Positions 1,866-22,465 of a stretch of 24,299 bases of DNA are shown here, one piece after another. Positions within the stretch are counted from its first letter, which is position 1, and each line of letters begins with the position of its first letter. The notes beneath the pieces were generated by a model, which saw only the letters and a list, made by a program, of their open reading frames with translations, did not search any database and had not been told where the DNA came from. The DNA is from a virus: positions 1 to 24,299 of the IMG/VR virus record IMGVR_UViG_3300031857_001338; one strand, written 5' to 3'. The position numbers and the translations under genes were made by a program.

Positions 1866-2549
1866 TTAATCCCAGAGACCACGGTAGTATTTGCCAAACA
1901 AACGAAAACCATTATCCATACGGTCATAAACTTTTCTCATACCATCGTAATCACATTGATATGTGTGATTAGGTCCATCTTCAAATATGTAGAGTGTTGG
2001 TTTACCATTTTCATCCCATTCACATGGAACAGATTGTGTGTCAATCTCACCAGAACGATATGCTTCCTCCCATGATTCATCAATAAGATGTTCAAAGGCA
2101 AAAATCATTTCATTTAATACCCATTCCCAACGACGATGTGTGATATCCCAAGAATCTTTTTGATACTGTTCTTGATCTTCAAACTTCAATATGAATTGTG
2201 ATGAACCGTCTTCATAGCCAACTCTGCGTAGTTCTTCTGGTACATCTTCGGCATCAACCATTGGTGAACCGTGTTTGGTATCACGCAGTTGTTTCAACAT
2301 CGGTAGAATGATATCTGCTAATGTGTGATCCATTGACCATGTATCGTAACGGTCAATCTTCACATAGTTTATTTTTGGATGTACAAAGTCAAGAAACTTT
2401 TGCCATGCCCTACTAAAAGGAATCAGAAAATTGGAAAGTTTTTTGATGATAGGCTCATCATAATCAATTTCACGCCAGAAGAAAACTTTCTCCAGTATGG
2501 TATAAGGAGAAAGCCAATGATTACGATAATTTGATTTGTAAATTTTCAT
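1866..2549 (-). CDS. Conserved phage protein of unknown function
   Basis: 227 residues, rich in Trp, Tyr and acidic residues. The central segment (residues about 55-100: FVHPKINYVKIDRYDTWSMD, then HTLADIILPMLKQLRDTKHG) is strongly conserved in homologues that I recall from T4-like phages, where it remains a hypothetical protein. There is no signal peptide, no membrane segment and no motif of a known enzyme. The start at 2549 lacks a clear Shine-Dalgarno. The gene lies immediately downstream of the tmRNA, with a 9-bp hairpin (2567-2598) between them, and could be cotranscribed with it. Confidence 0.75.
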   Translation of the reverse strand: MKIYKSNYRNHWLSPYTILEKVFFWREIDYDEPIIKKLSNFLIPFSRAWQKFLDFVHPKINYVKIDRYDTWSMDHTLADIILPMLKQLRDTKHGSPMVDAEDVPEELRRVGYEDGSSQFILKFEDQEQYQKDSWDITHRRWEWVLNEMIFAFEHLIDESWEEAYRSGEIDTQSVPCEWDENGKPTLYIFEDGPNHTYQCDYDGMRKVYDRMDNGFRLFGKYYRGLWD

Positions 2550-2563
2550 AATGTATAGAATTT

Positions 2564-2885
2564 GGTGTAGAGTGTTTTGGTAATAAGGTACACTCCACTA
2601 AAACCCCATGAGAATTAAGCCGCTAGGCGTTCTTCTCCATAAAATGCGTCATTTGCATTTATAGATTTGCTTGATTTACAGTCATCGCCTACTGTGTTGC
2701 CTTCTCCACTATCTCACCCTGTCGAAACCAAGTCTAGCCCATCAGAAGTGTCCTGCTGTTCACAGGTCGGGAATTCCAATCCTCAGAGTCTTGTTAAACT
2801 CTTACATATCACCCTAAACAACACTTCTGGTGGACTAGGGCGGAGTCGAACCGCCGTCCAGAATGCCTTCACTTTGAAGGGATTA
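2564..2885 (-). ncRNA. ssrA: Circularly permuted (two-piece) tmRNA
   Basis: Read on the minus strand, the acceptor piece comes first. It has a T-arm (GGCGG-TTCGACT-CCGCC, 2855-2839), acceptor strand CTAGTCC (2838-2832), discriminator A and an encoded CCA (2830-2828). After an 87-base intervening segment comes the coding piece, starting GGGCTAG (2740-2734) and followed by GACTTGGTTTCGACAGG. GGGCTAG and CTAGTCC form a 7-bp acceptor stem with G-U at the third pair, the alanine identity element. The intervening segment closes with AGAAGTGT/ACACTTCT, extending the stem as in precursors cut by processing enzymes. The tag reads GCA (2656) to TAA (2615): ANDAFYGEERLAA, with the conserved A four bases before the resume codon. 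Outer limits are approximate: a hairpin at 2567-2598 may close the 3' end, and the acceptor piece probably starts near 2885. Confidence 0.92.
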
Positions 2886-3039
2886 CAACAATTCCTTCCT
2901 GCTGCATTTGTCGATAAAACTCATTTTTCTTTGCTGCATACCAGCCCCACGAACCAAAGAAAGTAGTACCAGGATTTGGTCCTTGCTCTCTCAAGTACAC
3001 ATCAAGTTTTTCGTCGTATTCTTTTTCAGTAATTTGCAT
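2869..3039 (-). CDS. 56-residue phage protein abutting the tmRNA
   Basis: Small protein starting MQITEKEYDEKLDVYLREQG and ending VVIPSK. The middle, PNPGTTFFGSWGWYAAKKNEF, is aromatic and probably structured; I do not recognise the family. The start at 3039 follows the upstream stop with one base between (TGATATG), indicating coupled translation. Its last codons and stop lie in a perfect 6-bp hairpin (CCTTCA-AAG-TGAAGG, 2867-2881) directly upstream of the tmRNA acceptor domain. Coding sequence and RNA gene therefore probably share bases, and the hairpin may help release or protect the RNA end. Confidence 0.65.
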   Translation of the reverse strand: MQITEKEYDEKLDVYLREQGPNPGTTFFGSWGWYAAKKNEFYRQMQQEGIVVIPSK

Positions 3040-3040
3040 A

Positions 3041-3571
3041 TCACACCGTTGTAAATCTTGCAGAACCTTTGCTTGTTCTACCAGGTTTCAGCGGCTTGTC
3101 AGATTTTGGTTTTGTTTCTGTTTGAAACGATGCTTGTGGCTTATTGAAAGCCATCTTGCCTACATTCTCTGTCTTGCCGTGACCTGGGAATCCTGTTTTG
3201 TTTGTTCCATGTAGGGTCGCTGTTTTTCCATCGTGATGTAAGATTGAGTCTTGATTATAATGTTCTCCATGTTTTTTAATATCATGGAGGAGTTGTTTGC
3301 CGTGTTCATCTCCCTTTCCTTTTGCATGTACCAGTATAGACTTCTCTTTACCACCTTCCCAATGACCTTCAACTTCTTTGTGAGTGTAGCCTTGTGCAGT
3401 CAGTTTCTTTTTAAGTTCTTCATGATGCTTTTTATTTTGTTCTGGCGATACTTCATCATGTGGTCGCTGTGAGGAAATAACAGCATAGTGCCTACCCTCT
3501 TCAGCGTGTTTAGCCAATCTTGCCAGCGGATTACCTTCATCTAATTGCGTATGTTGTTTGAATGATAGCAT
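3041..3571 (-). CDS. Predicted capsid-targeted protein, DUF3293-like
   Basis: 176 residues, rich in His, Lys and Gly. The N-terminus MLSFKQHTQLDE-G looks like the capsid targeting sequence of T4-like internal proteins, ending in LDE-G, which fits the T4 gp21 prohead protease consensus (L/I)xE-(A/G/S). The body (YAVISSQRP near residue 30, HHEELKKKLTAQGY, VEGHWEGGKEKSILVHA, QDSILHHDGKTATLHG) resembles DUF3293 proteins, function unknown. A GATAAATA late-promoter-like box lies 22 bases before the ATG and GGAGG sits at the correct spacing. The inference is that it is made late, packed into the prohead, trimmed and possibly injected. No protease gene is in the window to confirm this. Confidence 0.72.
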   Translation of the reverse strand: MLSFKQHTQLDEGNPLARLAKHAEEGRHYAVISSQRPHDEVSPEQNKKHHEELKKKLTAQGYTHKEVEGHWEGGKEKSILVHAKGKGDEHGKQLLHDIKKHGEHYNQDSILHHDGKTATLHGTNKTGFPGHGKTENVGKMAFNKPQASFQTETKPKSDKPLKPGRTSKGSARFTTV

Positions 3572-3586
3572 AGTGCCTCCAACTTG

Positions 3587-4252
3587 TCAAGCATATTTAT
3601 CAATCATTTCAATCAACGGTTGCCGATAATCATGTATCTGTCGTTCAAACACCTGTGCAGGACCTTCTTCGGTAGCGATCAATACCACGATGTCATCAAT
3701 CCAAATGCCAGTTCTTTCAGCAAACATTATTGCATATGCTGTACACTGCATAAAATAGTTCAGAATGTAGTCTTCATCTTTTTGCTTGGTGGAAGTCTTA
3801 AAGTCAATGACTGATAACTTACCATTCCATTCAGCAATCAAGTCTACACGACCAGCAATACGATATTTGTCAGAATACAGTGCTTGTTCCTGCGAATAAA
3901 CTTTACCAACGTTATCATCAATAATTGGCTTAATTTTGAAAAATAATTCTTTCAGATCAGGCATCAACATCTGCATTCTGAATTCATTTATTTCATTGTT
4001 GATGTAGTCTTCGCAAATCTTATGCACTTTCGTACCACGATTTGACGCCTTGCGTGATATCTCATTTGCTCGTTCTTCACCTACAGCCTGTCGCCACTCA
4101 TAGAGTGCCTTTTTGCCATAATGCGAAAGCACCGTAGTGATAGACTTATACTGATTGCCTTCTGGCGTAGTATAGAGTCTACCATTATCGGTAGTTTCTG
4201 CTTTTAGATCGAATTGTAGTTGCGGTAAACTTACATGTTCAAATGTTCTCAT
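3587..4252 (-). CDS. PD-(D/E)XK superfamily nuclease (RecB/Cas4-like exonuclease)
   Basis: 221 residues. Motifs in order: RGTKVHKICE with His77, a Glu at 123, GRVDLIA with Asp137, VIDFKTS with Asp150 and Lys152 (the D-x-K core), and QCTAYA with Gln169 and Tyr173 (the QxxxY helix). These are the metal-binding and catalytic positions of the RecB-like branch of the superfamily. The protein probably degrades or resects DNA during phage replication, recombination or host DNA breakdown. Homologues are common as stand-alone exonucleases in T4-like phages of aquatic bacteria. It starts two bases after the oxygenase stop and may be expressed with it. Confidence 0.85.
   Translation of the reverse strand: MRTFEHVSLPQLQFDLKAETTDNGRLYTTPEGNQYKSITTVLSHYGKKALYEWRQAVGEERANEISRKASNRGTKVHKICEDYINNEINEFRMQMLMPDLKELFFKIKPIIDDNVGKVYSQEQALYSDKYRIAGRVDLIAEWNGKLSVIDFKTSTKQKDEDYILNYFMQCTAYAIMFAERTGIWIDDIVVLIATEEGPAQVFERQIHDYRQPLIEMIDKYA
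3594..3601 (-). promoter_or_regulatory. Candidate late promoter for the capsid-targeted protein
   Basis: GATAAATA matches the T4 late -10 consensus TATAAATA at seven of eight positions. It lies 22 bases upstream of the ATG at 3571, leaving room for a short leader with GGAGG. It overlaps the end of the nuclease gene. The spacing is close to that of the perfect TATAAATA box before the fibre operon. It is a short motif in AT-rich DNA, so it may be chance. Confidence 0.4.
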
Positions 4253-7594: not shown

Positions 7595-10021
7595 TTAAGT
7601 CCATTTAAGAATAACGATACCCGAACCACCGGTACCGCCGGATCCTCCACCACCCCCACCACCAGTGCCAAATACACCATTACCTGCTAAACGTGAATCT
7701 GAGGGAGCAACGTAATTATTCCCACCACCACCTTGACCACCAGCAGTTATAAAAACGGGTTGTCCTCCTGGTGCGCCGCCGCTTACGCTTGTGCCACCAC
7801 CACCACCAGCATAGAAAGTGGAAGTTCCTGTGATTGTTGAAGCAAGACCTACTCCGCCATTTCCACCAGTTGTGCCACTTACTGCATTAGCACCGTTAGC
7901 ACCGGCACCTCCACCGCCACCTCCAGCTCCATTCCATGAAAGACCAGCACCAGCGCCGGTACCACCACCAGTTCCTTGTGCTGGCGAAACAGCGGGTACA
8001 TTTCCTAAACCGCCTATTCCTGTGGCATAAGTGTTGTTGTCGCCGCCAGTGCCACCTCCACCCGATCCGCCACTGGCACCATTATAACCAAATGTGCCCG
8101 GCTCATACAAAACTGCCGTGCCACCACATCCACCACCGGCAGACCAAATGGATGATGATACATTAAAAATTCCAGAATTTGTACCATTACTTCTTCCAGC
8201 GCCGCCGGAACCAACAATAATTGTATATGTTCCAGGTGAGACAGAATAAGATGTTGATGTGCGATACCCACCAGCACCACCACCCCCACCGTGTGTTCCA
8301 CCGCCACCACCTCCACCACCGACGACAAGGTATTCTATACTTGTGACGCCTGTTGGAACATTCCATGTTGCTGTGTTAGAGAACACTGCGATTTTGTTTT
8401 GTGATGCGGATATTTTAATGACGGCAAAGCCAGAACCTCCAGCCGAACCACTGACATAGGTTGCGCCGGTGTAACCACCACCGCCACCGCCACCTCCGGT
8501 ATTTGTATTTCCGGTTGACGATACATAACTATTATTATTTCCACCGCCATTACCACCACCACCTTGACCACCATTACCTGCACGTGACTGATTTGCGCCA
8601 CCACCTCCACCACCGGCGTATGCTACATTAGAACTTGTGATTGTAGAAAATACTCCTACACCACCATTTCCGCTTTGTTGCACTCCTGGATGTGGAGGTG
8701 CTGCTCCAACTGAACCGCCAACTGCGCCTGCGCCACCACCGCCACCACAAAAACCAGCAGGACTATTACCTCCATTGTTGCCTTGTCCGGGTGTTCCAGA
8801 ACCAGCACTCCCATTACTCTGTCCAGTTCCACCGCCAGAACCTCCACTAGCACCTTCTTTTTGACCAGGATCATCGCCACCTCCGCCACCACCACCTCTT
8901 GCCGAAAAGAGTATCGCATTTGCTGTATTACCTGCAAAAAGAACTGTATTTGAACCAGAGGCGCCTCTTAGAGCCGGAAATGGAGCCGGTGCGCCTGCAC
9001 CACCACCTCCACCAGCACCAACTCGGATTGTGTAAAGTTGATTCGGTCCTACAGGATAACTAGTGCCTTGTAATAGACCACCAGCACCACCACCGCCACC
9101 CAAAGAGCCGCCACCGCCGCCACCAGCGACTAACAAATAATCAATTGTTGTGACTCCATTAGGTATTACTATTTGACCTGTATTTGCAAAAACATAGACT
9201 CCTTCACCACCCGGAAGTGTTTCTACATAACGAAGAATAATAACACCTGAGCCACCTGCACCAGCACTAGAACCATTACCCTCTGATCCTCCTCCACCAC
9301 CACCTTTGTTGGCCACAGCAGAAGAACTTACATTAGCACCACCATAAACTGGATTGCCACCGCCACCCGATGAACCTCCACCAGGAAAATAACCGGCGCC
9401 GCCACCACCTGCATAACCAGTATTTGAGCCGGACAATGATGAGAACAATCCTATGCCACTGGCAGCCTTTGCTCCCGCACCGCCAGCGCCGCCACCACCA
9501 CCAGCAGTATATGATCCCGGACCCCACGGTGCAGAGGGACCTCCATCATTACCTTGTCCTGGTGTTCCTAATCCACCAGCAACACCTTCAGAACCTCCTC
9601 CACCAGAACCACCACTACTACCTCCAAAAGGCGCTCCAGCGGGAGCATTGTTTCCACCACGGCCGCCGCCAGTTGACCAAAAGGAAGCGGTTGATGTAAA
9701 TAATCCCGAATTAGCGCCATTGGCAGCAGCAGAACCACCGGCACCAACAATAACATTCCATGTTTGTGCTGATACTACGTTGAAGCCTGTGCCGGTTCTA
9801 AAACCTCCAGCACCACCACCGGCGCCAGTGCCTTGACCACCACCACCTCCACCTGCAACGATAAGATAATCTACACTTGTTACACCCGTTGGTGTTATCC
9901 ATGTAGTTGTTTCAGTAAATATTCTTGTTACTGTGTAATTCTCTACAGCAAGTACCGAAGGTCTTCTTACAAGACCGTATGAACGAACTGATGCTGCGCT
10001 AAACGATGCAAAGATTGGCAT
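7595..10021 (-). CDS. Glycine-rich adhesin / tail fibre tip paralogue 1, three modules
   Basis: 808 residues with three modules of about 260. Each opens with a short beta part ending TP(T/N)GVTS(V/I)(D/E)YL, passes into long glycine runs (YLIVAGGGGGG, GYAGGGGG) and ends in a beta strand of GGSGVVILRY type. Modules start near residues 28, 270 and 547. The N-terminus MPIFASFSAASVRSYGLV is shared in form with the two next genes and probably attaches to the fibre. The family is the glycine-rich domain group (Gly_rich_2 type). By analogy with the polyglycine-II tip adhesin gp38 of phage S16, these runs may pack as a polyglycine-II sandwich and bind the host surface. It is the last gene of the late fibre operon. 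Confidence 0.82.
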   Translation of the reverse strand: MPIFASFSAASVRSYGLVRRPSVLAVENYTVTRIFTETTTWITPTGVTSVDYLIVAGGGGGGQGTGAGGGAGGFRTGTGFNVVSAQTWNVIVGAGGSAAANGANSGLFTSTASFWSTGGGRGGNNAPAGAPFGGSSGGSGGGGSEGVAGGLGTPGQGNDGGPSAPWGPGSYTAGGGGGAGGAGAKAASGIGLFSSLSGSNTGYAGGGGAGYFPGGGSSGGGGNPVYGGANVSSSAVANKGGGGGGSEGNGSSAGAGGSGVIILRYVETLPGGEGVYVFANTGQIVIPNGVTTIDYLLVAGGGGGGSLGGGGGAGGLLQGTSYPVGPNQLYTIRVGAGGGGGAGAPAPFPALRGASGSNTVLFAGNTANAILFSARGGGGGGGDDPGQKEGASGGSGGGTGQSNGSAGSGTPGQGNNGGNSPAGFCGGGGGAGAVGGSVGAAPPHPGVQQSGNGGVGVFSTITSSNVAYAGGGGGGANQSRAGNGGQGGGGNGGGNNNSYVSSTGNTNTGGGGGGGGYTGATYVSGSAGGSGFAVIKISASQNKIAVFSNTATWNVPTGVTSIEYLVVGGGGGGGGTHGGGGGAGGYRTSTSYSVSPGTYTIIVGSGGAGRSNGTNSGIFNVSSSIWSAGGGCGGTAVLYEPGTFGYNGASGGSGGGGTGGDNNTYATGIGGLGNVPAVSPAQGTGGGTGAGAGLSWNGAGGGGGGAGANGANAVSGTTGGNGGVGLASTITGTSTFYAGGGGGTSVSGGAPGGQPVFITAGGQGGGGNNYVAPSDSRLAGNGVFGTGGGGGGGSGGTGGSGIVILKWT

Positions 10022-10024
10022 TTT

Positions 10025-12565
10025 TTAATTCCATTTGAGAATAACGACACCAGAGCCGCCGGCGCCGCCGATGGATGATGCACCTCCTCCACCACCACCG
10101 CCACCAGTAAATGAACTAGAAGAAAGACCAATACCACCCACTACACCATTAGCCCCACCACCTTCACCACCAAAACCATTTGTGACCGGTCCATCACCAC
10201 TTCCACCGCCACCACCAGCATATGCTGTATTTGAGCCAGATATAGTTGAATATATTCCTATGCCACCGTTACCAGCTCTATTAAATGGAGTTACTGGCGC
10301 ACCTGTACCATCTTGACCTGCGGCTCCAGCACCACCGCCTCCACCCCCAACAGTGTAGGTAAAGTTATCACTTCGACCTCTGCCTCCATTATTGCCCTGT
10401 CCTGGTGTACCAAAGGCCGCTGGTACAAGGCCATTTAAATTTCCAGTTGAACCTCCACCAGATCCACCATTAGCACCACTTAATGCAGGTGCTATTCCTC
10501 CATTTTGACCACCGCCACCCCCACCGCCACCGATTGATGTAATTGTGTCGAATGTAGAATTACTTCCTGATGGTGCATTTGAATTTTCAACTGAACCTCC
10601 AGACCCACCTGCACCAATAGTCACAATAATAGATGCACCAGGAGTTACTGGATAAGATGGAGAGACTCTAAGACCACCTGCACCTCCCCCCCCACCTCTA
10701 CCTCTACCGCCGCCACCACCACCTGCTACAACAAGATATTCGACACTTGTTACACCCGTTGGCACATTCCATGTTGCTGTGTTAGAAAAGACTGCTATTT
10801 TATTTTGTGATGTAGATACTTTGATGACAGCAAACCCAGACCCTCCGGCGCCTCCACCTCCTGCACCACTAGTGCCGGAAAAACTTGCAGCGCCTCCACC
10901 TCCTCCAGTGTACGTGTTACCAGAAGAAGCAAATCCACCATTGACTGGTGATCCATCACCGCCACCAAACGGTGTGCCTAACCAAGGAGAACCAGCAGAG
11001 TATAATGCGTAACCACCACCACCTTTACCTTCAGTTGTGCCACGATAATCTCCACATCCACCACCACCGCCTGCATATGCTACATTAGAGCCCGTGATCG
11101 AAGAAAATATTCCTATGCCACCATTGCCCGATCTTGCGGGACTTGCTTGTCCGTTTGCTCCTGCGCCACCAGCACCACCACCGCCACCACCATTGCCCAC
11201 ACCAGGAGTAAATGCCTGAGCGCCACCAGCAAACCCTTGTCCCGGTGTACCTAAACCAGCACCACTTCCACCACCTCCTCCTGACCCACCAGAAAAACTA
11301 GGTATATTATACGCAGCACCAGCACCACCACCTATCGCAGTAAGTATCGCAGCATTTGTTGTATTACCAGCAGACAACACAGTATTTACACCATTACTTC
11401 CACTTCCTGAGAAAAGTGGTGCTGTAGGCAATCCACCACTCCCACCAGCACCAATTCTAACTGTATAAAGTTGGCCTGGACCTACTGGATACCCTGTACC
11501 TTGTAACACACCACCAGCACCACCACCACCACTTGAATTATGAGAACCACCCCCACCACCAGCAACTAATAGATAATCAATTGATGTAACACCTTGAGGT
11601 ATTACTAATTGTCCTGTGTTAGCGAAAACATAGACACCATTTCCAGTTGATCGCTCTGTATAACGAAGAATAACTACGCCAGATCCACCCGAACCACCGG
11701 TATATGCTTCTCCAGGATTATTTCCTACTTGTCCTGCGCCACCACCTCCACCACCACTGTTTATTGATCCACTACCGCCTGCTCCATCTCCAGTACGGCC
11801 AAATCCCCCTCCACCATCACCACCAGATGCATTTGCAGGTCCAGCAGATGCGCCACCACCGCCACCGCCAGCATAACCAGTGTTTGATCCAGTAATTGAA
11901 GAAAATGCACCAACACCACCAGCACCACCTCTTGATCCCGGCCCCCCGTTTCCACCAACACCACCGGCTCCACCACCACCGCCACAAGATGTAGAATCTG
12001 TGCTTATGCCGCCACCAGTATGTGAGCCACCTGCATTACCAAAAACACCACCAGGTCCACCAACTCCACCACCACCACCTGCGCCTCCAGCACCAGAACC
12101 CGAAGCATTACCATTACCTCTTCCGGGCATGGCATTAGGCGCACTACCTTGATATGTTCCAGCTCCGGCTCCACCATCAGACCATATTGAAGGAAATGGT
12201 GAAGCAGAAAAAATACCTGAATTTGAACCGTCTGAACTGTAAACGCCTGGAGTTGCTGGAGCAGATGTTCCACCACCACCAACAGTAATTGTGTGAGTAG
12301 CACCTGGTGTTACGCTTAGTCCTGTTCCTGTCCTGAAAGCACCAGCACCACCACCGCCACCGCAGGCAGACCAATAAAATGAAACTCCACCACCTCCGCC
12401 ACCACCCACAACAATATAGTCAACTGATGTTACACCTGATGGTACTACCCATGTATCACTCTGAGTAAATATTCTACTGACTGTGTAATTGATTATGGCG
12501 TCTGGTTTACCAGCAATTCTGAACGATGCTAATATGTTCGAACTTAATGAAGCAAGAATCGGCAT
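10025..12565 (-). CDS. Glycine-rich adhesin / tail fibre tip paralogue 2, three modules
   Basis: 846 residues and the same three-module plan as the gene downstream. Module starts are near residues 27 (YTVSRIFTQSDTWVVPSGVT), 310 (GVYVFANTGQLVIPQGVTSI) and 583 (NKIAVFSNTATWNVPTGVTS). Modules 2 and 3 are closest to modules 2 and 3 of the neighbour, showing that whole genes were duplicated after the modules had multiplied. Variation is concentrated between the glycine runs, where surface loops are expected. It ends three bases before the next ATG. The Shine-Dalgarno signals inside this block are weak, so translation is probably coupled. Receptor binding is inferred. Confidence 0.82.
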   Translation of the reverse strand: MPILASLSSNILASFRIAGKPDAIINYTVSRIFTQSDTWVVPSGVTSVDYIVVGGGGGGGVSFYWSACGGGGGAGAFRTGTGLSVTPGATHTITVGGGGTSAPATPGVYSSDGSNSGIFSASPFPSIWSDGGAGAGTYQGSAPNAMPGRGNGNASGSGAGGAGGGGGVGGPGGVFGNAGGSHTGGGISTDSTSCGGGGGAGGVGGNGGPGSRGGAGGVGAFSSITGSNTGYAGGGGGGASAGPANASGGDGGGGFGRTGDGAGGSGSINSGGGGGGAGQVGNNPGEAYTGGSGGSGVVILRYTERSTGNGVYVFANTGQLVIPQGVTSIDYLLVAGGGGGSHNSSGGGGAGGVLQGTGYPVGPGQLYTVRIGAGGSGGLPTAPLFSGSGSNGVNTVLSAGNTTNAAILTAIGGGAGAAYNIPSFSGGSGGGGGSGAGLGTPGQGFAGGAQAFTPGVGNGGGGGGAGGAGANGQASPARSGNGGIGIFSSITGSNVAYAGGGGGCGDYRGTTEGKGGGGYALYSAGSPWLGTPFGGGDGSPVNGGFASSGNTYTGGGGGAASFSGTSGAGGGGAGGSGFAVIKVSTSQNKIAVFSNTATWNVPTGVTSVEYLVVAGGGGGGRGRGGGGGAGGLRVSPSYPVTPGASIIVTIGAGGSGGSVENSNAPSGSNSTFDTITSIGGGGGGGGQNGGIAPALSGANGGSGGGSTGNLNGLVPAAFGTPGQGNNGGRGRSDNFTYTVGGGGGGAGAAGQDGTGAPVTPFNRAGNGGIGIYSTISGSNTAYAGGGGGSGDGPVTNGFGGEGGGANGVVGGIGLSSSSFTGGGGGGGGASSIGGAGGSGVVILKWN

Positions 12566-12566
12566 C

Positions 12567-14273
12567 TTATCTCACTTTGATATGAACAAAACCTGAGCCA
12601 CCGGAACCACCAGTGACAGGATCACCACCGAGTGGTCCACCACCAATTGACGCACCACCACCTCCACCACCACCGCTATTTGTAATAGCACTTGTACCAG
12701 ATGCACCGTAACCAGTTCCACCGGCACCACCACCAAACTGTGGATGTGCAGGTCCTCCTGTACCAAAAAATGGTGCTGCGCCGCCACCACCACCAGCATA
12801 TCCAGTGTTAGCACCTGTGATTGAAGAAAATAATCCTAGTCCACCAGAACCACCACCAGGTGTAGCATTACCACCTACACTTCCAGCACCACCTCCACCA
12901 CCACCGGCAGGTTGACCACCAGCAGGACCGGAAGAGAATCCGCCAGTTCCACCAGCACTGCCTTGTCCGGGTGTACCAGCAGCACCAACACCATTGGGTC
13001 CGGCACCTCCTCCACCAGAGCCACCGCCACGGGCGTTTGTGCCTGGAGTGACACCTGAACCGCCACCAATTGCTACTAAGTTTGAGAAAAATGGTCCCGT
13101 TGAAGTTATTGATGAGTTTGTGCCATTTGTACCACTGACACCAAGACCTGTTATGCCAGCACCACCAGCACCAACAGTAATTGTATAAACTTGATTTGAT
13201 GTTATCGGATAGTTTGTTCCAGTTATAAAACCTCCACCGCCACCACCACTATCGCCACTACCACCGCTACCACCACCAGCAACAATCAAGTAATCCATAA
13301 CTTGACCTGGCGGCATTATTATTTGTCCACTACCAGTAAATGTAAAGTTATATTCTTTTGTTGTGAAGTAACGAAGAATAACAACACCAGAACCACCTCC
13401 ACCACCAGTAACAGGTTGATTACTTAATGGGCCTCCACCAACTGATGAGCCTCCACCACCCCCACCTCCACGATTTGTGTCAGCACTTGTTCCCGAACTA
13501 CCCCAACCGGTGCCACCAGAGCCTCCACCAAACTGTGGATGTGCTGGACCACCAGCAGAATAAGAGGGTGAACCGCCACCACCACCACCAGCATAACCGG
13601 TGTTTGCACCTGAAAATGAAGAAAATACTCCTAAACCACCTCCACCATTTCGTGTTAAAACTCCAAAAGGTCCTCCTGGAAAAAGTTGTTCTCCAGGTTG
13701 ACCTGGACCACCCCCAACACCTCCAGCACCACCGCCACCACCACCAGAAGTAAATTGACCGGCCGGTCCTTGCCCTGCTGTAGAAGCGCCTCCATTGTTT
13801 CCCTGTCCTGGAGTTCCTAATCCAGCAGGACCACCCGTTGGACCTGCACCTCCACCACCTGAACCACCAGAACGACCTCCAGTACCAGGTGCTACACCCG
13901 ATCCACCACCAATTGCTATTAAGTTTGCAGCCGGCGCAGCGGCAGTTATAGATGAATTCGTTCCGTTTGAACCGTTTAAGCCAAGACCTGTTATGCTGGC
14001 ACCTCCAGCACCAACTGTAACAATATAATTAGCACCGGCAACAACAGGAAAATCTGTGCCAGTAAGAAAACCACCCGCACCACCTCCACTTTCACCAGCA
14101 GCACCACTTCCACCGCCAGCAAGAACTAGATAATCAATTTTATCAACATCAGTGGGAACTGTCCAAGGATTTGAACCGTAAAAAATTCTGAGTACAGGGA
14201 ATCTAGGCGTTACTCTACCAACAAGTTTAAACGATAACAAAAGATTGGAGTTTATTGATGCTAAACTTGGCAT
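12567..14273 (-). CDS. Glycine-rich adhesin / tail fibre tip paralogue 3, two modules
   Basis: 568 residues with two modules, beginning near residue 27 (PVLRIFYGSNPWTVPTDVDK) and residue 307 (EYNFTFTGSGQIIMPPGQV). The two modules are close copies of each other (both contain YAGGGGG, PAHPQFGGG and a GG(P/G)L...PVTGG end), implying recent internal duplication. The N-terminus MPSLASINSNLLLSFKLVG matches the pattern of the other two paralogues. It starts two bases after the fibre gene stop and ends one base before the next ATG, so all four genes behave as one late unit. Function as fibre-tip or adhesin is inferred from composition and position. Confidence 0.82.
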   Translation of the reverse strand: MPSLASINSNLLLSFKLVGRVTPRFPVLRIFYGSNPWTVPTDVDKIDYLVLAGGGSGAAGESGGGAGGFLTGTDFPVVAGANYIVTVGAGGASITGLGLNGSNGTNSSITAAAPAANLIAIGGGSGVAPGTGGRSGGSGGGGAGPTGGPAGLGTPGQGNNGGASTAGQGPAGQFTSGGGGGGAGGVGGGPGQPGEQLFPGGPFGVLTRNGGGGLGVFSSFSGANTGYAGGGGGGSPSYSAGGPAHPQFGGGSGGTGWGSSGTSADTNRGGGGGGGSSVGGGPLSNQPVTGGGGGSGVVILRYFTTKEYNFTFTGSGQIIMPPGQVMDYLIVAGGGSGGSGDSGGGGGGFITGTNYPITSNQVYTITVGAGGAGITGLGVSGTNGTNSSITSTGPFFSNLVAIGGGSGVTPGTNARGGGSGGGGAGPNGVGAAGTPGQGSAGGTGGFSSGPAGGQPAGGGGGGAGSVGGNATPGGGSGGLGLFSSITGANTGYAGGGGGAAPFFGTGGPAHPQFGGGAGGTGYGASGTSAITNSGGGGGGGASIGGGPLGGDPVTGGSGGSGFVHIKVR

Positions 14274-15159: not shown

Positions 15160-15702
15160 CTAAAAGATAATATCTGCAATACCATACTCTACCAACTCTT
15201 CTGCGGTCAGCCAAACATCGGTTGGTCGCAGAAACTTGGATTTCACATCTTTGACCGACAGTTTGGAACGGTCGGAAAGAATCTTTGCCATCTTGTGATG
15301 ATACCGATCACACTCTTTGGCATAAGCCCGCATATCATGATACTTGCCACCCATTTCGTCATTAAATTGATGAATCATGATTGTCGTGTTTTTACCTACT
15401 GCACGATAACCTTTTTCACCAGCAGCAAATATCACAAATGCGGCACTCATCAAATTTCCATACGCTAGTGTGCGAACAGGTAAGCCCAGACCCGACATCA
15501 AGTCTGCCAATCCAATCGCATCACCTAGGTTACCGCCCTCTGAGTTAATGTGTAGCGTCAGTGGCTTTTCAATCTTGTTGAATTTTGCATAAAGTAACCA
15601 GCGTGACGCAGCCTCAATGTTTGTCGGCTCAATGCTGCCAGACAAAAAATGGGCATAGTGTTCAAACTGTACTTCCTGTACTTCGTTCTCTTTGTCGCTC
15701 AT
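15160..15702 (-). CDS. clpP: ClpP-like serine protease
   Basis: 180 residues, the usual core length of ClpP without a long propeptide. The catalytic triad is visible: Ser86 in YGNLMSAAFVIFAAG, His111 in TIMIHQF, and Asp162 in RPTDVWLTAEELVEYGIAD. The Ser-His spacing of 25 equals that of bacterial ClpP. LTLHINSEGGNLGDAIGLAD is the substrate-strand region. The protein should form heptameric rings and depend on a ClpX or ClpA ATPase, which would have to be the host's since none is in the window. T4-like phages use gp21 as prohead protease, so here ClpP more likely alters host or phage protein turnover. The tmRNA tag in this window ends in LAA, the ClpX signal. Overlaps galE by 41 bases. Confidence 0.9.
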   Translation of the reverse strand: MSDKENEVQEVQFEHYAHFLSGSIEPTNIEAASRWLLYAKFNKIEKPLTLHINSEGGNLGDAIGLADLMSGLGLPVRTLAYGNLMSAAFVIFAAGEKGYRAVGKNTTIMIHQFNDEMGGKYHDMRAYAKECDRYHHKMAKILSDRSKLSVKDVKSKFLRPTDVWLTAEELVEYGIADIIF

Positions 15703-22036: not shown

Positions 22037-22465
22037 TTATTCTGAAAGATGTTTTTCTAATGCTTTTGCATAACGATTGGCATGTGAACGTTCTGCTTTC
22101 GCAAGTGTTTCAAACCAATCGGCTACTTCATCAAAGCCTTCTTCACGTGCAGTCTTTGCCATACCTGGATACATGTCAGAGTATTCGTGCGTTTCGCCAG
22201 CGATAGCGGCCTCTAACATTTGTCGTGCATTTTTTGCTGGCATGTTTGTGCCAGGTTCTCCTGCACCACCTTCAATGAGATATTCCATATGACCATGTGC
22301 GTGTCCAGTTTCACCTTCTGCTGTAGAACGGAACAATGATGCTAAATCGTTCTCACCTGCAATATCACACTGATTTGCGAAATAAAGATAACGGCGGTTT
22401 GCCATTGATTCACCTGCAAAAGCCTCTTTCAAGCACTCAGCAGTTTTTGTGCCTTTCAAACTCAT
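22037..22465 (-). CDS. Rubrerythrin-like diiron protein (no rubredoxin domain)
   Basis: 142 residues, a four-helix ferritin-like bundle. Iron ligands fit rubrerythrin: Glu19 (AFAGES), Glu52 and His55 (GETGH), Glu91 and Glu94 (GETHEY), Glu125 and His128 (AERSH). The C-terminal rubredoxin domain is missing and the protein ends after helix four (YAKALEKHL). Rubrerythrins reduce hydrogen peroxide or protect iron proteins under oxidative stress. AGGGAG precedes the ATG. TTTAAATA at 22494-22501, one base from the late consensus, might be its own promoter. Cotranscribed with pqqA. Confidence 0.88.

Follow-up and report, generated by a model that had tools for sequence, protein, structure and literature searches.

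A conserved, circularly permuted two-piece tmRNA gene in an aquatic T4-like phage

tmRNA releases stuck ribosomes and marks the incomplete protein with a tag. Why would a phage carry a gene for it when almost all hosts have one of their own, and is such a gene a working part of the phage or a copy recently taken from a host? The question is raised by a 24.3-kb virus record with T4-type genes (the window, meaning the whole stretch of 24,299 nucleotides analyzed), in which an earlier note, made from the sequence alone, had recognized a circularly permuted tmRNA on a T4-like phage and had named a covariance-model search as one check. The search bore out the reading. The Rfam model RF04321 (tmRNA_permuted) matched at 2890–2615 with 142.5 bits (E 1.9e-28), full length (model positions 1–213 of 213) and above its gathering threshold of 47 bits, and RF01850 (beta_tmRNA) matched at 2938–2563 with 131.1 bits (E 4e-40; threshold 84), this betaproteobacterial subtype being the top scorer in its clan, with the post-tag hairpin included. 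ARAGORN likewise called a permuted tmRNA (tmRNA*) at 2524–2920, with the tag ANDAFYGEERLAA* at 2656–2615. The gene order is acceptor piece, intervening segment and coding piece (Table 1); the coordinates and pairings given earlier all hold, and the strand, which had been left unstated, is minus, CTAGTCC-A-CCA stopping at 2828 and GGGCTAG beginning at 2740. Judged from its sequence, the locus is a complete, circularly permuted two-piece tmRNA gene at approximately 2563–2890 and is under selection as a two-piece tmRNA.

The acceptor piece reads, 5′ to 3′, GTTGTAATCCC...GGCATTCTGGACGGCGGTTCGACTCCGCCCTAGTCC-A-CCA, and the coding piece holds a D-arm remnant, TGGTTTCGACAGGG, together with a GGCAAC strand pairing with the acceptor piece. 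The two pieces meet in an acceptor stem of 7 bp (GGGCUAG with CUAGUCC) that contains G3–U70, just as a 7-bp stem with an alanine-type G3–U pair had been claimed. In 95 distinct viral relatives, among the matches listed, this stem was 100% paired and showed 84 both-side changes, compared with a shuffled mean of 20.7. When sequences were extracted with a free spacer, the 7-bp pairing and G3–U70 were both present in 158 of 158; the pattern of the first scan prescribed a C, then TCC, in the 3′ acceptor strand and had U70 built in, while G3, the 5′ strand and the intervening segment were left free.

Table 1. Positions of the tmRNA gene, its parts and neighboring or related genes in the window
Feature	Position	Strand	Evidence and remarks
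Circularly permuted tmRNA (ssrA) gene	2563..2890, outer ends approximate	-	Rfam RF04321, RF01850, ARAGORN
Acceptor piece	2828..2890	-	T-arm GGCGG-TTCGACT-CCGCC; sequence, RF04321 alignment
3′ acceptor strand CTAGTCC	2832-2838	-	Followed by discriminator A and encoded CCA ending at 2828
Intervening segment, 87 nt, predicted to be cut out	2741..2827	-	Helix covariation, spacer counts, fold
Closing helix, 8 bp	2820-2827 with 2745-2752	-	96% paired in 95 relatives (among the matches listed)
UGAU spacer	2741-2744	-	Before 5′ end of coding piece
Coding piece, 5′ part up to tag end	2615..2740	-	RF04321 alignment, acceptor covariation
5′ acceptor strand GGGCTAG	2734-2740	-	Start of coding piece
Tag reading frame, 13 residues	2615..2656	-	ARAGORN; follows a resume codon, closed by a stop; GCA AAT GAC GCA TTT TAT GGA GAA GAA CGC CTA GCG GCT TAA = ANDAFYGEERLAA*
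Post-tag hairpin GTGGAGTGT-ACCTTATTACCAAA-ACACTCTAC	2567..2598	-	Tail comparison; matching helix of RF01850
56-aa upstream ORF	2869..3039	-	Final codons inside 5′ part of tmRNA gene
PD-(D/E)XK exonuclease, marks conserved tmRNA locus	3587..4252	-	phrog_298, PF12705
Downstream gene, phrog_11543, function unknown	1866..2549	-	ATG 14 bases past end of tmRNA model
ClpP-like peptidase, putative partner	15160..15702	-	PF00574, E 3.9e-30; Ser, His and Asp kept (alignment to 3q7h)

The base of the segment between the two pieces was also found to evolve as a paired structure. Its closing helix, with the strands GAAGUGUU and GACACUUC, begins right after CCA and is divided from the coding piece by UGAU; a helix closing this segment had been correctly proposed, the AGAAGTGT given at that time beginning at the A of CCA. 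Among the matches listed, the 95 distinct relatives contained 295 both-side changes in the helix, against a shuffled mean of 94 and maximum of 135, and their spacer was TGAT in 71 and TAAT in 21 cases. The signal occurs at the 4-nt offset only, and a shift by one or two bases destroys the pairing and covariation. The pre-tmRNA stem formed by the acceptor and coding ends and the intervening segment has a predicted energy of -39.4 kcal/mol (z -4.4), and 0 of 200 shuffles were as good. As the helix and UGAU are present also in plasmid copies from Cupriavidus (beta) and Microvirga (alpha) and in the phage Melnitz, they are a general trait of permuted tmRNA genes rather than a phage invention; a limited literature search found nothing on the intervening segment.

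The tag gives a second view of selection on the gene. It belongs to the family ANDAFYG(E/D)(E/D)RLAA, and 50 viral contigs contain the pattern ANDAFYG(E/D)(E/D)-x-LAA, nearly all of them with a permuted tmRNA by ARAGORN. Among the matches listed, seven sequences with the ANDAFYG tag had been found blind to the tag; these comprise six distinct DNAs with ten extra synonymous codon types against two extra amino-acid types, and their pooled pN/pS was 0.066. Across all 23 distinct tag DNAs the ratio was 0.044, but as most of these were found via the tag itself, only the former figure is unbiased. By this measure, the ANDAFYG tag is under purifying selection, its change being almost only synonymous. 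The finding bears on the possibility that the phage tmRNA is a decoy, binding SmpB or ribosomes and thereby blocking trans-translation by the host, a role proposed for a tmRNA-like gene without a tag in mycobacteriophage DS6A. According to PMC4131195 and PMC11915505, tmRNA in E. coli is inhibited by a DS6A-like molecule. The phage also seems to bring no SmpB of its own, none having been found in 19 related records; a decoy needs no tag, however, while the frame here is intact and conserved, and the acceptor end retains both G3–U70 and CCA in full. Because the gene has preserved its tag, we consider a decoy quite unlikely.

Downstream of the tag, the relatives keep the loop motif of the post-tag hairpin and show covariation in its stem, and the hairpin is possibly part of a pseudoknot. 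Otherwise similar genes can differ in the tag: tmRNA bodies 91–93% identical to the window's up to this point bear ANDSEYALAA or ANDERYALAA, suggesting that tmRNA bodies swap tags. The AFYG tag requires 10 changes on the tmRNA tree, which with ~150 columns and many open forks is too weakly supported to prove exchange. Very long tags (27–31 aa) were seen in at least 16 permuted phage tmRNA contigs (e.g., ANADTFDFSAMSFTGNTVSGKSKVALAA and AKANTFEYFQVPVTLATANDAEFAIAA) and are shared across contigs; some resemble a normal tag preceded by an insert of ~20 residues, and those of the first kind (ANADTFDFSAMSFTGNTVSGKSKVALAA) have a pooled pN/pS of 0.435.

The identity of the phage was approached through its relatives. 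The nearest phage matches of the window's RNase H are the Kyanoviridae S-CAM3 and Melnitz, with 46–49% identity, and a 133-kb relative, whose RNase H is 99% identical, encodes T4 Gp23 and the same tmRNA tag. The T4-type Gp23 capsid protein was found in 12 of 17 long related records, that relative included, and is not in the window itself, a 24-kb fragment; a megablast search of cultured phages with the full window gave no match. Gp23 in the relatives and the RNase H point to a T4-like phage related to the Kyanoviridae. In most close relatives, the tmRNA follows the exonuclease and at least one small ORF in the same orientation, and Melnitz and Mosig also have the exonuclease upstream of their tmRNA. 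The product of the 56-aa ORF is 59–88% identical in those relatives that possess it; in other phages, different ORFs end inside the tmRNA gene, some of them stopping at the TAA of TTGTAA. The protein encoded directly upstream of the locus, at 3041–3571, matches PF23780 (E 1.4e-12), a family of S-adenosylmethionine lyases, which are one type of anti-restriction protein in phages. Elsewhere, the window encodes a rubrerythrin-like ferritin-fold protein (22037–22465; PF02915, E 5e-25) and three consecutive large glycine-rich repeat proteins of 808, 846 and 568 aa (7595–14273) that are probably tail fibers or adhesins.

The earlier note had considered a permuted tmRNA unusual on a T4-like phage, and this part of it is not supported. 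With a single scan allowing a gap of 80–110 nt, we found the permuted pattern in at least 120 viral contigs, ARAGORN concurring in nearly all. Among 22 relatives picked by RNase H alone from contigs of at least 50 kb, 20 had a permuted tmRNA above threshold, and the two others are fragments of 54 and 62 kb; the gene is thus near-universal, or near-core, in this aquatic T4-like phage clade. Cultured phages carry such genes too, both the Kyanoviridae phages Melnitz and Mosig and unrelated phages of Pseudomonas, Stenotrophomonas, Xanthomonas and Acinetobacter. The hosts of the latter, Gammaproteobacteria, have one-piece tmRNA. Our numbers can be placed beside two earlier reports: one from 2022 counts 133 unique tmRNA structures in phages, of which 53 are two-piece and 50 of these aquatic, and includes Kyanoviridae isolates with the tmRNA gene at the same locus (PMC9004378), and the other, which presents the RF04321 model, has a list of 79 tmRNA sequences from phages (PMC11915505). 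In the Tunturiibacter phage Tunturi_4, a permuted tmRNA call with a 33-aa tag (536–1070) adjoins a gene annotated as a release factor with an RF-1 domain, placing two ribosome-rescue-like genes side by side.

Whether the phage took the gene from a host or carries its own lineage had been left as an either/or. Of the two, a long-standing phage lineage fits better than recent host capture, given the conserved locus and a tag family found in viruses only. At the extreme, the gene could be a recent copy of host ssrA with no phage function, for example one left behind by imprecise excision. Pieces of ssrA can be acquired by phages, as PMC9004378 discusses for Melnitz, and the RNA is betaproteobacterial in type. 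Against this, the gene is intact, the locus is conserved in many divergent relatives, the stems covary, the tag is selected, and its pattern was found in 0 of 84,980 species genomes scanned, a set in which each species is represented by a single genome and some regions are masked, so that rare carriers may be missed. We regard a functionless copy as highly improbable, and the tag as conserved and apparently virus-only. A permuted tmRNA on a Pandoraea plasmid has a tag ending in ...KNDAFYYEAA, and the NDAFY core is therefore not wholly foreign to bacteria. The tag scan is independent of gap length. A genome scan for the general permuted pattern (80–110 nt gap) also gave zero in bacteria; this result was discarded, as it reflects the gap chosen, the Cupriavidus copies having an intervening segment of 32 nt.

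The Rfam and ARAGORN matches, the covarying stems, G3–U70, the selected tag, the conserved locus and Gp23 in the relatives are best explained by a working phage-borne permuted ssrA, and we think it likely that its product is host-processed, charged with alanine and used with host SmpB for trans-translation during infection. A single precursor, presumably transcribed together with the neighboring genes, would fold back within the 87-nt intervening segment and so lengthen the acceptor stem. By analogy with known two-piece tmRNAs, host RNase P would cut before G2740 and 3′ processing would end the other piece at the CCA at 2828, giving two RNAs held together by the acceptor stem and a second helix. 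With G3–U70, the product should be a substrate for host alanyl-tRNA synthetase, and with SmpB it could enter ribosomes stalled on broken or nonstop mRNA; Ala plus ANDAFYGEERLAA would be added, translation would stop at UAA and the ribosome would be recycled, and the LAA end would send the fragment to a protease. No SmpB gene was found in 19 related records, so the host would have to supply the protein. The gene would maintain ribosome rescue as the host's RNA is broken down, and sustaining rescue during infection is its most likely purpose.

The protease need not be a host enzyme, and the tag could instead feed a viral tag-and-degrade route, directing proteins, for instance those of the host, to the phage's own ClpP-like peptidase. 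Such a gene lies in the window with its catalytic triad kept. Of 17 viral records with a permuted tmRNA, 14 had one, as did 21 of the 22 relatives picked by RNase H; the conserved tag, found in viruses only, is consistent with a dedicated route. Both genes are near-universal in the clade, however, and their co-occurrence is no independent association and is uninformative about a specific partnership. Moreover, Melnitz and Mosig have a tmRNA and no ClpP, close relatives have differing tags (ANDNYYAMAA, ANDERYALAA), and the phage ClpP may serve as a protease of another kind, such as a prohead protease. We consider this route unlikely. A broader idea, that the aquatic T4-like clade runs its own branch of trans-translation with a near-core tmRNA, a virus-specific tag, host SmpB and possibly phage ClpP, is doubtful; if true, the virus would take control both of rescuing ribosomes and of what becomes of broken proteins during infection. 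The gene is near-universal in the clade and selected both as a two-piece RNA and as a tag, and related genes are present in cultured phages, which makes the question of why phages carry tmRNA testable in the laboratory.

Among known systems, the gene resembles the betaproteobacterial permuted tmRNA (RF01850) in its gene order, tRNA-like domain, G3–U70, tag frame and post-tag hairpin with a CCUU..UUACCAAA loop. Our bacterial reference set consisted of four plasmid-borne betaproteobacterial copies and one alphaproteobacterial copy. The Cupriavidus plasmid copies share the intervening helix and UGAU spacer with the phage gene, but score 284–287 bits with RF01850 compared with its 131 bits and have the far shorter intervening segment; unlike the betaproteobacterial type, the phage gene has a 13-residue tag absent from the scanned species genomes, and the terminator hairpin of the RF01850 model does not follow it. 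Permuted genes on plasmids occur in Cupriavidus and in Pandoraea oxalativorans (pPO70-1), the Pandoraea copy, whose tag contains NDAFYY, being, at 131.6 bits, just as far removed from the betaproteobacterial model as is the gene in the window.

The Methylophilales phage Melnitz and the Pelagibacter phage Mosig (Kyanoviridae; PMC9004378) are likewise T4-like, with a permuted tmRNA downstream of a PD-(D/E)XK nuclease and no SmpB found. Unlike the window's gene, theirs, at the corresponding locus, score best as the alphaproteobacterial type (alpha_tmRNA, 106.7 bits for Melnitz and 67.6 bits for Mosig), and one locus thus holds two tmRNA types in related phages. Their tags, ANDNYVPVDYALAA and GEDNFALAA, also differ from the window's, and Melnitz has a glutamine riboswitch after the tmRNA gene where the window has none above the gathering score. 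Phage-borne permuted tmRNAs are found as well in Pseudomonas phages SM1, PaMx31 and UF_RH6, Stenotrophomonas phages Marzo, DLP_6 and BUCTxx99, Xanthomonas phage XacN1 and Acinetobacter phage BUCT628, and most of these match the betaproteobacterial model, as does the window's. These eight phages differ in belonging to unrelated groups and bearing other tags, and for the first blastn hits among them only 12–20% of the window's gene could be aligned. The records of UF_RH6, PaMx31, DLP_6, BUCTxx99, XacN1 and BUCT628 do not annotate the gene as a permuted tmRNA. The wide viral spread of the betaproteobacterial type raises the question of the direction of transfer between phages and bacteria. Set among these systems, the gene is of a known kind and normal for its phage clade, and what distinguishes it is the conserved, apparently virus-only tag and its near-core status.
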